NCBI RefSeq assembly: GCF_004341365.1
Contig: NZ_SLXH01000006.1
Span: 62,001 to 126,000 of the forward strand
DNA: 64,000 bases
DNA from: Simplicispira metamorpha
Lineage (GTDB): Bacteria; Pseudomonadota; Gammaproteobacteria; Burkholderiales; Burkholderiaceae_C
Direction of reading: 5' to 3'
Positions 4,974-8,743 of this stretch are shown in pieces. The notes beneath the pieces are model-generated. The model had not been told where the DNA came from and did no database searches. It saw only the letters and a program-made list of their open reading frames with translations. How positions within the stretch are numbered: position 1 is the stretch's first letter; each line of letters starts with the position of its first letter. Position numbers and translations under genes: made by a program.

Positions 4974-5567
4974 TCAAATCACTGCTTGCAGCGCTGTCTC
5001 TGGTGCATCGGTGCGTATGTCTTGCACCAGAGAGCGCAGCAGGACATCGGTTTCCTGGCCGGTTTGTACCAGTCCCATTTGCCATTCACCGATGAAGCCG
5101 CTGGCAACGCTGTGCTGCAGAAAGGCCAGCATGGCGTCGTAATAGCCCGCCACGTTCAGCAGCCCGATAGGCTTGTCGTGGTAGCCCAATTGGCGCCAGG
5201 TCCAGACTTCAAACAGTTCTTCAAAGGTGCCTATCCCGCCGGGCAGGGCCAAAAAGGCATTGCTGCGCTCGGCCATCAAGGCTTTGCGTTCGTGCATGGT
5301 GCGCACGATGTGCAACTCGTCGCAGGCGTGGCGCGCATGTTCTTTGTCCACCAGCGATTGCGGGATCACGCCCACCACGCGGCCACCAGCGGCCTGGGTG
5401 GCATCGGCCACGGTGCCCATCAGCCCGCTGCGCCCGCCGCCATACACCAGTTGCCCACCGTTGGCACCTATCCAGGTGCCGACAGCGCGCGCCGCCTGGG
5501 CAAACAGTGCGTTCTCGCCAGGGCGCGAGCCGCAATAAACACAAATCGAAAAAGCCGGTTCAGCCAT
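4974..5567 (-). CDS. LOG-family (TIGR00730) nucleoside 5'-monophosphate phosphoribohydrolase
   Basis: A 197-residue Rossmann-like protein of the LOG/YvdD family. Signatures are CVYCGSRPG near the N-terminus and PGGIGTFEEL, the PGGxGTxxE motif that defines the family. Characterised members cleave cytokinin riboside or other nucleoside monophosphates to base and ribose 5-phosphate; the bacterial substrate here is unknown. I chose ATG 5567 (MAEPAFSICVYCG); the longer frame has no family support. The start overlaps the end of dgkA by 8 bases on the same strand, so the two are likely co-translated. The stop lies 4 bp from the convergent glnB stop. Confidence 0.88.
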   Translation of the reverse strand: MAEPAFSICVYCGSRPGENALFAQAARAVGTWIGANGGQLVYGGGRSGLMGTVADATQAAGGRVVGVIPQSLVDKEHARHACDELHIVRTMHERKALMAERSNAFLALPGGIGTFEELFEVWTWRQLGYHDKPIGLLNVAGYYDAMLAFLQHSVASGFIGEWQMGLVQTGQETDVLLRSLVQDIRTDAPETALQAVI

Positions 5568-6023: not shown

Positions 6024-6590
6024 TCAGACGGGTTTGTTTCTTCGGGCCGCATCGAAATGCACCAGCCGGGTGCCTGCCAGTGCATCGTGCAAAAACTGGC
6101 GCTGCGGATGAAAGCGGCTCAGAATGGCCCAAACCGCTACCCAGCCCAATACGATGACCGTGATTTCCGGGCCTGAAAGCGCAAAGGGCGCAACGCCCAG
6201 CAAGGGTGGCAGAAACCACAGCCAGCTCAAGACGTAGCGCCACAGTGCGCGCCCTTGGCTCAGTGGTTGGCCTTGTGCATCAACTGCGCGGATGTGCCAG
6301 GTTTTCATGGCCAGTGTTTGCCCTTTGGCCCAAAACCAGGTGAAGTAAATGCCAAACACCACAAACAAAAAGCCTTGCAGTGCGTGCCGGTTGTCCAGCG
6401 CGTGGCGCGTTTGGCTGAGGGTGCTGAACAAATAGCCCGCAATGAAGACCACGCCAAACATCAGCAGCCCCTCGTAGAGCCAGCATGCCATGCGCCGTGG
6501 CAGGGGCGGAGCTTGCAGCAAGGTGGATTCAGGGGCTGTCGGCCCAGCCTGGGGGTGCTGCCGGGATGGGCGCGATGGCGAGGCGTGCAT
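6024..6590 (-). CDS. RDD family membrane protein
   Basis: A 188-residue protein with an RDD domain: an early Arg (RRMACWLYEGLLMFG), a W/A-K-G segment (FWAKGQTLAMKTWHIRAV) and a late His-Asp (QFLHDALAGTRLV). There are about four hydrophobic segments. RDD proteins are poorly understood inner-membrane proteins; some act in ion exchange. It is 8 bp downstream of the DUF3106 gene on the same strand, so it is probably transcribed with the sigma factor cassette. Confidence 0.88.
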   Translation of the reverse strand: MHASPSRPSRQHPQAGPTAPESTLLQAPPLPRRMACWLYEGLLMFGVVFIAGYLFSTLSQTRHALDNRHALQGFLFVVFGIYFTWFWAKGQTLAMKTWHIRAVDAQGQPLSQGRALWRYVLSWLWFLPPLLGVAPFALSGPEITVIVLGWVAVWAILSRFHPQRQFLHDALAGTRLVHFDAARRNKPV

Positions 6591-6598
6591 TCAGAAAG

Positions 6599-7441
6599 TC
6601 AGTGGAAATTAGGCGAATCGGGCTCGGAGGGAGGCGGTAGCTCCGCAGGGGCAGAACCCGATGGTAATGGGGGCAGTGGCAGTGGCGTAGCGATAGGGAC
6701 AGAAATCGGTACGGTTTCAACCACGATGGGTTCTGCCGTGTGTGTGCGTGTGTCCGTGGCTGGCTGGGATGGTGCAGTGCGCGCTATACGGCTGGGCGGG
6801 GGAGGAATTTTGGGGGGGTTCAGCGGATTGGCATCGCTGGCAGTGGCCGCGGGCACCTGGGCCAGTTTGCGTGCAGGCACAGGTCGCAGCGCTGTGGCAG
6901 CCCCCGTAGGACGGGGGGTAGCGCCCGCAGCCAAACGCTTTTTTTCTTCGCTGCTCAAGGCTTGGTAAGCCTCCCACTGCGCACGTTTGTTGTCGGGAGC
7001 CAGTTTGTTGGCAGTTGCGAAATTCAGACGCGCCTGGTTGCGCTGCTGCGCACTGAGATTGGCCCATTCGGTCATGCGCTCATGCAGCTTGGCTTGCTCG
7101 GGGGCAGGCAAACTGGCGAAACTTTGTGCCAACACCAGCCAACGGCGTTTTTGCAGCTCACTCAGAAAAGACCAGCGCTCTGCCAATGGGCGCAGCGCCA
7201 GTTTTTGTGCCGCCGTGAGTTCCATCCAGCCGGGGCCAGAGGCGGGGACGGCTGCATCTGTGGGACGCATATCGTTGGTGGCTTGCTTGCTGGTCAGGGC
7301 CCCTACAGGCAGCACGGTGCCAGGGGCCATGCGTACTTGCTGCAAGACTTGCCAGCCACACAGGGTCAGCGCACCCAGCAGCACCAAGGCTGCGCAGATG
7401 CTGGGGCTAAAGCGGGAGGGGGCGGAGTCCAGTACGTGCAT
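6599..7441 (-). CDS. DUF3106 protein, membrane-anchored with predicted periplasmic helical domain
   Basis: 280 residues. One hydrophobic segment at about 17-33 (AALVLLGALTLCGW) is followed by a helical region with repeated motifs: LTAAQKLALRPLAERW, LPAPEQAKLHERM, LSAQQRNQARLNFA, LSSEEKKRLAAG. The last third is proline-rich and probably disordered. DUF3106 is a domain of unknown function. The topology (single N-terminal anchor, exported helices with LxxxQ-type motifs) resembles periplasmic sensors of the CnrX/ZraP kind, which is an inference. It sits 17 bp downstream of the DUF3619 gene in the sigma factor operon. Confidence 0.8.
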   Translation of the reverse strand: MHVLDSAPSRFSPSICAALVLLGALTLCGWQVLQQVRMAPGTVLPVGALTSKQATNDMRPTDAAVPASGPGWMELTAAQKLALRPLAERWSFLSELQKRRWLVLAQSFASLPAPEQAKLHERMTEWANLSAQQRNQARLNFATANKLAPDNKRAQWEAYQALSSEEKKRLAAGATPRPTGAATALRPVPARKLAQVPAATASDANPLNPPKIPPPPSRIARTAPSQPATDTRTHTAEPIVVETVPISVPIATPLPLPPLPSGSAPAELPPPSEPDSPNFH

Positions 7442-7458
7442 GCAGGCGTGCGCAGTTG

Positions 7459-7902
7459 TCAGTGGTTTTGTGTGCCGCCTGCTTTGAGGAATTGCACAAA
7501 TCCAGGGTCTGCGTAGGCTGCGGGCGGCAAATCATCGGTGAGCAAGGCGGCATCCACTTCGGCTACTTCTGCCGTGCTGTATGCGTCTTGCGAAAAGTTG
7601 ATGACCACCAGACCCACCATCAGTGCCATGGCCGGAACTGCGCCTAGCAGGGAGCGCCACCAGCCACTGCCACCGCCCAGCCAGCCCAGCGCGGCGCTGG
7701 CGCCTGTTTGCACCACTGTAGGTGCCGTCTGGTGTACTGGAACGGCTTTTTTGCGTTGGGCCAGTGCCTGTACGCGCGCCGCCCGCAGGCGCTCCGAAAT
7801 ATCGTGGGGTAGCTCTCCTGTGCTGTCGTCCAGGCGCGCAGCCAAGCGGCGTGCATAGACGTCGCAGGCAGATTCGTGGGGGTGCGATTGCAAAGTGTTC
7901 AT
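7459..7902 (-). CDS. DUF3619 protein, candidate membrane anti-sigma factor
   Basis: 147 residues. A hydrophilic N-terminal part of about 85 residues (DVYARRLAARLDDSTGEL, HDISERLRAARVQALAQRKK) is followed by one transmembrane helix at about 88-108 (LLGAVPAMALMVGLVVINF) and a short acidic C-terminal tail. It overlaps the upstream ECF sigma gene by four bases (ATGA), the usual arrangement for a sigma factor and its anti-sigma. The size and topology also fit an anti-sigma factor, but no ZAS motif is present and the role is inferred from context. ATG 7902 was chosen over a longer frame that runs into the sigma gene. Confidence 0.8.
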   Translation of the reverse strand: MNTLQSHPHESACDVYARRLAARLDDSTGELPHDISERLRAARVQALAQRKKAVPVHQTAPTVVQTGASAALGWLGGGSGWWRSLLGAVPAMALMVGLVVINFSQDAYSTAEVAEVDAALLTDDLPPAAYADPGFVQFLKAGGTQNH

Positions 7903-8468
7903 GGTTCTATTCCTTTGGCCTTCAGGGCTTTGCTGAGGGCTTGGACGGCGCGAAAGCAATGGGTTTTGACACTGCCCTCAGAGCAACCCATGGCGGCTGC
8001 GGTTTCAGCCACGTCCATCTCTTCCCAATAACGCATCAAAAACGCCTCCCGTTGACGTGGAGGCAGTGCCTGGATTTCTATTTCAATATCGCGCAACGTT
8101 TGACTGCGCCGGGCCAAGTCTTCAGCGCTTTGGGCGCGCTCGCCATCGTCAGGCCCTGCCCATGCTTCCAGCAGGTCGAAGTCGCCGGCATCGTCACCGG
8201 GCGCTTCAAAGTCACTGAGGTGGGAAAACAGGGCGTTGTGCCTTTTTTGGCGCCTAAACCAGTCCAGCGTGCAGTTGGACAAAATGCGCTGAAACAGCAT
8301 TGGCAGCTCGTTGGCGGGTTTGTCGCCGTAATGCTCCGACAGTTTCATCATGCTTTCCTGCACGATGTCCAAAGCCGCTTCCTCGTTGCGCACGTGGTAA
8401 TACGAACGCTTGAACGCGCGTTTTTCCACGCTTTTAAGGAAATCGGAAAGTTCTTGTTCGGTAGCCAA
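7899..8468 (-). CDS. ECF-type RNA polymerase sigma factor
   Basis: 189 residues. Sigma region 2 is at about 10-80 (ALDIVQESMMKLSEHY, FQRILSNCTLDWFRRQKRHN). Region 4 is at about 125-180 (LPPRQREAFLMRYWEEMDVAE, MGCSEGSVKTHCFRAVQAL). The start is TTG 8468 (MATEQELSDFL); no in-frame ATG gives a family-typical N-terminus. It directs RNA polymerase to an unknown regulon. The following gene (DUF3619) overlaps by four bases, suggesting translational coupling to a partner that restrains it. It is divergent from ilvI across a spacer holding a perfect 12-bp inverted repeat. Confidence 0.92.
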   Translation of the reverse strand: MATEQELSDFLKSVEKRAFKRSYYHVRNEEAALDIVQESMMKLSEHYGDKPANELPMLFQRILSNCTLDWFRRQKRHNALFSHLSDFEAPGDDAGDFDLLEAWAGPDDGERAQSAEDLARRSQTLRDIEIEIQALPPRQREAFLMRYWEEMDVAETAAAMGCSEGSVKTHCFRAVQALSKALKAKGIEP

Positions 8469-8525: not shown

Positions 8526-8593
8526 GGATTATCGCACCGGGATGGCTTTTTTTGGCGCCCGTCCCATATTCGTATGTTGCAGTGCGATAATCC
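8526..8593. promoter_or_regulatory. Perfect 12-bp inverted repeat in the sigma/ilvI divergent region
   Basis: GGATTATCGCAC (8526-8537) is repeated in inverted form as GTGCGATAATCC (8582-8593), 44 bp apart. Each arm contains GATAAT reading outward, so they may be the -10 elements of mirror-image divergent promoters or two binding sites for one regulator. Good -35 hexamers are not visible. Confidence 0.45.
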
Positions 8594-8743
8594 GCGCCGT
8601 ACATCAAAAAAGCAAACGGGTCACGGTCCGGCGGGGCACTCTTCTCGTCCATGGCCTTGGTCTCAAGTTCCAAGCCGGCTTCACAAGAGTTCGCGCAAGG
8701 AGCACCGAAGGTTTTTCGTTAGAGAAATTCACAAAGGTTCATC

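Follow-up and report, generated by a model that had tools for sequence, protein, structure and literature searches.

An ECF sigma factor gene and its DUF3619 and DUF3106 neighbours: a conserved trio that probably encodes a trans-membrane signalling unit

We analysed a stretch of 64,000 nucleotides from Simplicispira metamorpha (contig NZ_SLXH01000006.1, positions 62,001 to 126,000; hereafter the window), in which an open reading frame (ORF) and profile scan placed three genes at 6599-8468 of the minus strand, in the order extracytoplasmic function (ECF) sigma factor, DUF3619 and DUF3106. Comparison of their homologues makes it close to certain that the three proteins act together. The trio probably forms one trans-membrane signalling unit, in which DUF3619 is the membrane anti-sigma factor and DUF3106 engages its acidic tail. 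Through its cytoplasmic helices, DUF3619 would keep the sigma factor inactive at the inner membrane, and through its single membrane helix it would extend a short tail, acidic and aromatic, into the periplasm. DUF3106, which is basic, helical and exported, would engage that tail, and this contact would decide whether DUF3619 holds or frees the sigma factor. If this is true, two unexplained Pfam families gain a function together, one as an anti-sigma factor and the other as its periplasmic partner. The initial annotation, made from the DNA letters alone, had proposed a sigma factor, a membrane anti-sigma factor and a periplasmic partner as a unit, and this core idea finds strong support in the conservation of the genes, in their joint presence or absence, in natural fusions and in a zinc-finger variant of the middle gene.

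Conservation of the trio

The three genes are as follows.

7899..8468, minus strand: ECF sigma factor gene (NF006550/PRK09047), 189 amino acids, TTG start
7459..7902, minus strand: DUF3619 gene, proposed membrane anti-sigma factor, 147 amino acids (PF12279, 2e-40)
6599..7441, minus strand: DUF3106 gene, proposed periplasmic partner, an exported or anchored helical protein, 280 amino acids (PF11304, 7.3e-27)

Each ORF is a member of its family, the sigma ORF with 261.1 bits against NCBIfam NF006550 (curated cut-off 173), the DUF3619 ORF with 138.6 bits against PF12279 (gathering cut-off 22.2) and the DUF3106 ORF with 94.3 bits against PF11304 (gathering cut-off 24.3). The sigma ORF also matches Pfam Sigma70_r4_2 (1.4e-17), and reaches just 21.5 bits for Sigma70_r2, under the cut-off of 24. 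Its TTG (8466-8468, minus strand) is the earliest possible start past the upstream stop, and TTG was the chosen sigma start in 211 of 368 homologues, a choice that depends on the profile built here. The ORF coordinates bore out the close packing that had been annotated: the ATG of DUF3619 and the TGA of sigma share ATGA at 7899-7902, and the DUF3106 ATG lies 17 bp beyond the DUF3619 stop.

Conservation of the triplet, which the initial annotation had named as a check on its proposal, was examined in 150 genomes of the same GTDB family, 250 of the order and 185 of the class (drawn evenly from a larger group), and the proposal was not refuted. All three families were present in 177 of the 250 order genomes, none in 62 and part of them in 11; the module extends across Burkholderiales and is scattered through the class. 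DUF3619 was found in 129/150 genomes of the family, 181/250 of the order and 16/185 of the class (14 of these above the cut-off), and in none of the 14 named genomes that served as controls for this search. DUF3106 was present in 184 and an NF006550-type sigma in 182 of the order genomes; a sub-cut-off DUF3106 match also occurred in the E. coli control.

The 11 partial genomes comprise two with sigma and DUF3106 (G333, G426), two with sigma and DUF3619 (G394, G512), one with sigma recognised by Pfam only and a divergent middle gene (G336), four with DUF3106 alone (G464, G562 and, weakly, G375 and G572), one with a weak DUF3619 alone (G453), and G544, with DUF3619 and DUF3106. The last was rejected as a sigma-less trio: 100 N of an assembly gap stand in the place of sigma, and the end of a sigma gene follows the gap. 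Genomes without the trio were found in families that also hold it (for example f1, f174, f178, f180, f183, f186 and f192), so the trio seems to have been lost as a unit more than once. Overall it is co-located and mostly present or absent as a unit. In the class sample, sigma scored above the cut-off in 41 genomes, and DUF3106 lay directly downstream in all of these except G110. Among eight weaker sigma matches (100-168 bits), DUF3106 was downstream in five and absent in two (G141, G097), and the contig ended in one.

We then compared gene order in 300 records, namely the window and 299 loci chosen by DUF3619 or DUF3106 matches, with some genomes counted twice. All three genes lay on one strand within 4 kb in 294 records, and in 291 the order was sigma-DUF3619-DUF3106; the three co-stranded records out of this order are those in which DUF3619 and DUF3106 form a single ORF. 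Of the six remaining records, L007 and L014 had no match to the DUF3619 profile built here, L112 and L278 lacked DUF3106 (L112 stops at a contig end), L077 lacked sigma (the gap of G544), and L298, on a short contig, lacked both sigma and DUF3619.

A wider set of 439 records, again with some genomes present twice, was searched with a sigma threshold of 90 bits and with the middle ORF picked as membrane-spanning. Sigma exceeded 90 bits in 433 records, a membrane-spanning middle ORF was picked in 427 and DUF3106 was found in 425. The DUF3619 profile gave a score for 406 of these 427; the others include at least one wrong pick (L427). Six records were left with no picked middle ORF; by eye, four of them (L097, L218, L220, L299) show a DUF3619-like ORF that the filter dropped, and two (L422, L429) show none. 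The four-base overlap between sigma and the middle ORF is more than chance, recurring in 327 of the 427 records.

DUF3619 as a likely anti-sigma factor

Three parts of DUF3619 enter the argument.

7753..7881, minus strand: residues 8-50, two predicted cytoplasmic helices (8-28, 33-50), the proposed sigma-binding part (AlphaFold2, pLDDT about 74-80 for residues 11-50)
7594..7650, minus strand: transmembrane stretch, about residues 85-103 (Kyte-Doolittle maximum; predicted long helix 80-121)
7483..7554, minus strand: acidic periplasmic tail motif, residues 117-140 (D..LL.DDLP..AY.DPGF..FLK), from column conservation

The initial annotation had described a cytoplasmic N-terminus, one helix and a tail, and this layout agrees with the sequence: the protein has one strong hydrophobic stretch, with a net charge of +3 on the cytoplasmic side and -6 on the tail. 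The same polarity prevails among 368 distinct loci, where the tail is net negative in 362 and the cytoplasmic part net positive in 327. Conserved residues at these loci are L24, R38, L39, R43 and A46 in the cytoplasmic part and, in the tail, D117 (84%), L121 (93%), P126 (89%), D132 (86%), F135 (91%) and also Y130. A simple tail expression matched 349 of the 427 middle-ORF tails; class genomes from outside the order often show a tail resembling E-D-L-D-F-Y-x-W-L. In the AlphaFold2 model, whose overall confidence is low, two N-terminal helices are followed by a linker of low confidence, a long helix through the membrane and a tail that is again helical.

DUF3619 thus has the layout of the ECF anti-sigma class: it is encoded with the sigma factor, has one membrane helix and has a sigma-facing N-terminus, the orientation being taken from net charge. 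Two N-terminal helices are predicted in the low-confidence model; in CnrY, two helices embrace sigma2 and sigma4 (PMC4598750, accessible part). The same text describes the CnrH-CnrY-CnrX system of Cupriavidus metallidurans as an ECF sigma factor, a membrane anti-sigma factor with a short helical cytoplasmic part and a periplasmic sensor. The initial annotation had likened the trio to this system; the likeness holds as an arrangement, but no sequence relation between DUF3106 and CnrX was found in a Pfam scan up to E 0.01 or in a profile search of PDB sequences. The two systems also differ in gene order, cnrYXH (PMC9045368, accessible part) as against sigma-DUF3619-DUF3106, and in that metal-efflux genes stand beside the Cnr regulators and none beside the window trio.

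A second line of evidence comes from loci at which the middle protein is of a recognisable type. HxxxCxxC is the signature of zinc-finger anti-sigma (ZAS) factors (PMC4598750, accessible part). The motif is absent from the window DUF3619 and from 424 of the 427 middle ORFs, but it stands ahead of the membrane helix at three loci (L326, L420 and L430, the last being a second, sub-cut-off sigma locus of G080), and the same D-L-[ED]-F-Y-x-W-L tail is kept there. In a search of these three sequences, the DUF3619 profile matched the membrane and tail part at 1.6e-7 (L326), 6.7e-6 (L420) and, hardly, 0.035 (L430). Since HxxxCxxC proteins with the kept tail stand in the middle slot, a recognisable anti-sigma type can fill it.

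These middle-slot proteins also argue against the improbable alternative that DUF3619 would be a membrane anchor or a positive partner of the sigma factor. Moreover, a sigma gene overlapped by the gene of a one-helix protein is the usual layout of sigma and anti-sigma pairs. Taken together, comparative evidence of this kind makes it likely that DUF3619 is an anti-sigma factor.

DUF3106, the periplasmic tail and natural fusions

Two parts of DUF3106 were delimited.

7331..7405, minus strand: N-terminal hydrophobic helix (signal or anchor), residues 13-37 (AlphaFold2 prediction)
6929..7228, minus strand: DUF3106 domain, residues 72-171 (seven predicted helices, residues 77-173)

The domain is modelled with high confidence, the mean pLDDT per 10-residue block being 87-97 over residues 71-170. 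The LTAAQ/LSAQQ-like repeats pointed out in the initial annotation lie inside the domain and coincide with conserved columns (L75 96%, Q79 83%, L129 88%, R134 96%; n = 368). The domain is net positive in 354 of 368 loci, opposite in net charge to the DUF3619 tail, which we count in favour of a contact between them. Three order genomes have sigma and a middle gene and no DUF3106: the tail is truncated in G336, long, acidic and of low complexity in G394, and normal in G512. Such tail changes where DUF3106 is missing are suggestive only of a link between the two.

Further evidence comes from natural fusions, which settle the topology and open the contacts to direct test. At three loci, all of genus g372 (L265, L279, L297), DUF3619 and DUF3106 form a single ORF with one membrane helix; both Pfam domains score above cut-off in 3/3 loci where both profiles match one ORF. 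Because there is only one membrane helix, DUF3106 therefore lies on the same side of the membrane as the tail. The three loci may represent one event. From these comparisons, DUF3106 likely acts through the DUF3619 tail. We infer that DUF3619 inhibits the sigma factor, that DUF3106 binds the tail and that tail binding is the switch.

At seven loci of class genomes (L011, L302, L304, L305, L323, L424, L432) the middle gene and DUF3106 are separated by a gene for a small, seemingly secreted protein. The protein carries a motif like L-E-F-L-G...W-x-D-P that resembles the anti-sigma tail, and it could compete for DUF3106. At L431 and L432, DUF3106 occurs with no sigma; a gene that by eye is L,D-transpeptidase-like stands immediately upstream, and the remnant of a tail-like peptide separates the two. 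An L,D-transpeptidase upstream of sigma is not a rule: a motif scan found it at only 1 of 32 loci.

A different role for DUF3106 would be that of a sigma-induced, chaperone-like or cell-wall effector in the periplasm, feeding back on an anti-sigma DUF3619 and not acting as its sensor. We consider this rather unlikely. Of the 49 class genomes with DUF3106, nine have no over-cut-off sigma adjoining it (two of the nine have an adjacent sub-cut-off sigma and seven have no such sigma beside it), and the LTxxQ-like repeats are reminiscent of periplasmic chaperones such as Spy and CpxP. However, fusion to the anti-sigma tail suits a partner more than a diffusible effector, and no paired ECF promoter was found upstream of the operon.

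Alternatively, the signal could be regulated proteolysis of DUF3619, as in RseA, with DUF3106 merely shielding the tail from the protease. Anti-sigma factors that are degraded stepwise have one membrane helix and a C-terminal tail, and DUF3619 shares the one-helix topology and a conserved C-terminal tail; against this, no protease was found among eight scanned neighbours in the window. We regard this mechanism as possible, though doubtful.

Metal sensing as in CnrYXH, in which DUF3106 would bind metal and open DUF3619, appears most improbable. The trio would share the three roles of the CnrYX anti-sigma complex (PMC4598750, PMC9045368, accessible parts), but no His, Cys or Met stands among the invariant DUF3106 columns (W, L, P, R, A and Y), and no metal-efflux genes adjoin the trio in the window. 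A Pfam scan of the DUF3106 protein up to E 0.01 returned DUF3106 only, and when PDB sequences were searched with its profile to E = 1, the single match (0.082) was to an unrelated chain.

A second kind of fusion was found in family f13. Besides its intact sigma locus, G165 carries an ORF in which a sigma-like half is joined to a DUF3619-like half, and DUF3106 comes after it. Relatives of this fusion gave matches in 65 of the 79 f13 genomes; six of these (G597, G608, G611, G615, G642, G648) were intact sigma, leaving 59, some of them partial. Intact sigma scored above the cut-off in 67 of the 79 genomes, and 52 of the 59 fusion-bearing genomes hold both. The fusion was recorded at L437 and L445-L464, and we examined the 20 best places in f13, G165 included (the L458 fusion is cut by a contig end). 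The sigma profile matched all 20 fusions (E at most 0.0018), and the DUF3619 profile matched 16 at E < 1, 11 of them at or below 0.0025. The DUF3106 profile matched at 16 of the 20 loci, on a separate ORF in 15 and on the fused ORF itself in one (L456). By HHalign, the N-terminal half aligned with the sigma family with 98.2% probability (residues 2-175) and the C-terminal part with DUF3619 with 95.3% (residues 18-146), the latter helped by the membrane helix, as the cytoplasmic part alone gave 67.2%; swapped controls gave 0.2% and 3.4%. Four of the 20 fusions (L455, L456, L460, L461) have a C-terminal domain 47-51% identical to the PF11304 protein of G165 (E at most 4.1e-27); as read from sequence, the sigma-like, anti-sigma and DUF3106-like parts occur as one molecule in these four.

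The sigma-like half of the f13 fusion does not keep the helix-turn-helix residues of the intact family. Known fusions of sigma and anti-sigma factors are IutY (ECF243), ECF48/52/53 and ECF36 (PMC8999054, accessible part). As far as they are described there, IutY-type fusions likewise join a sigma factor to a membrane anti-sigma part; the f13 fusion differs in its sigma part, which lacks the conserved helix-turn-helix residues, and in the intact above-cut-off sigma that accompanies it in those 52 of 59 genomes. PhyR/NepR mimicry also links a sigma-like domain with an anti-sigma factor, but has a receiver domain where the f13 fusion has a membrane anti-sigma part, and the match to PhyR_sigma-like is weak (0.0045, below cut-off). 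We tentatively suggest that the f13 fusion might act as a sigma mimic tethered to the membrane, competing for the intact system's anti-sigma factor and DUF3106 or presetting them; it would then be an anti-anti-sigma device derived from a whole sigma system that decayed. It is possibly a new example of membrane sigma mimicry.

Several observations weigh against the trio being one signalling unit switched at the DUF3619 tail. Because its sigma half is degenerate, the f13 fusion points to association and not to inhibition of an active sigma factor, and the DUF3106 profile built here matches just two of the four triple fusions, the other two resting on the pairwise match. Of the three zinc-finger loci, only L326 passes the zf-HC2 cut-off (22.8 against 22.2 bits); L420 and L430 do not reach it, and L326 and L420 are two genomes of one family. 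The DUF3619 model is weak (pTM, the predicted template-modelling score, 0.23), and a fold search with the DUF3619 and DUF3106 models gave no significant match to a solved structure (best Z 3.5, for DUF3106), an absence that we do not read as a new fold. The charges of the tail and of DUF3106 do not co-vary (r = 0.035), G512 retains its tail with no DUF3106, and in G110 an above-cut-off sigma has neither partner recognised.

Coevolution gave no help. The alignment comprised 362 paired sequences, with an effective number of 272 at 80% identity. The strongest sigma-DUF3619 couplings gathered at the periplasmic tail, which the sigma factor cannot reach: of the top 100, 77 involved the tail and 15 residues 1-60. 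We do not count the analysis for or against the model: phylogeny dominated it, the N-terminal helices scored lower than the tail control, and convergence was not demonstrated. In addition, a paired GGAAC-type ECF promoter was not enriched upstream of sigma (4 of 360 regions, 10.5 expected), and sigma autoregulation is therefore not indicated, although an unusual consensus would escape this test. GGAAC alone (98 against 80.5, standard deviation 5.5) and GAAC alone (250 against 216, standard deviation 7) were somewhat over-represented there.

The terms DUF3619 and DUF3106 retrieved no paper from the open PubMed Central (PMC) library, and a description of the trio or of the degenerate-sigma fusion was not among the matches listed there, in a search whose scope was open PMC text as distinct from subscription papers and supplements with possible ECF group tables. 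SbrI/SbrR of Pseudomonas aeruginosa is alike by description only, as an anti-sigma-controlled ECF sigma factor with a cell-envelope theme (PMC10418997, accessible part). Cupriavidus rpoR (Rmet_0910) was considered as a possible orthologue and set aside; the accessible literature lists it and gives a double-mutant phenotype.

Upstream region and neighbouring genes

Outside the trio we recorded two candidate promoter elements and a downstream neighbour.

8528..8536, minus strand: TGCGATAAT, candidate extended -10 element of the trio (sigma-70 type), from a pattern search
8583..8591, plus strand: TGCGATAAT, candidate extended -10 element of the divergent ilvB, from a pattern search
6024..6590, minus strand: RDD membrane protein gene, a neighbour outside the conserved core (PF06271, 1.3e-13)

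The initial annotation had seen in the RDD and dgkA genes an envelope or lipid stress theme. In the window, dgkA lies downstream on the same strand and ends at 5560 (PF01219, 3.8e-30), a TIGR00730 gene is a further neighbour, and ilvB is divergent upstream. We compared these neighbours in the Comamonadaceae-type relatives L104-L183, in an order-wide sample and in loci from other class families. Among testable loci, 62 of the 70 relatives and none of the 104 order-wide loci had dgkA less than 2 kb downstream. RDD was nearby in 66/72, 77/112 and 0/12 loci of the three sets, and divergent ilvB in 75/75, 81/105 and 0/23. On this distribution the conserved core is the trio, and the lipid theme is not supported.

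The trio and ilvB are preceded by back-to-back TGCGATAAT elements, each resembling the extended -10 of a housekeeping sigma factor. Such elements were found on at least one strand of 131 of 357 upstream regions as against 9 of 368 coding stretches, and on the sigma strand in 72 of the 357. The 10-mer TGCGATAATC occurs twice in the genome, both times here, but it was rejected as a motif of the trio sigma, as the 9-mer TGCGATAAT has five exact copies in the genome compared with six for the reversed control pattern. The remaining three 9-mer sites are on the reverse strand of the loci inspected; one falls within a tuf locus, and another is flanked by dnaA and an rnpA-like gene (genes recognised by eye). 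Given these tuf and dnaA/rnpA-like sites, a housekeeping extended -10 is a likelier reading than a sigma-specific motif.

Many loci share conserved blocks in the ilvB leader (8592-8743, plus strand). Among 360 upstream regions, taken on the sigma strand, 145 contain for example the 7-mer CGTTTGC and 101 contain GACCCGT, where shuffles gave 5.6 and 8.4. The leader had no Rfam match up to E = 1; its blocks could possibly belong to an unnamed leader RNA. Finally, at L307 and L312 a secreted-looking protein with repeats like G-D-R-I-x-x-R-x-D is encoded upstream of the sigma gene and is a possible regulon member.

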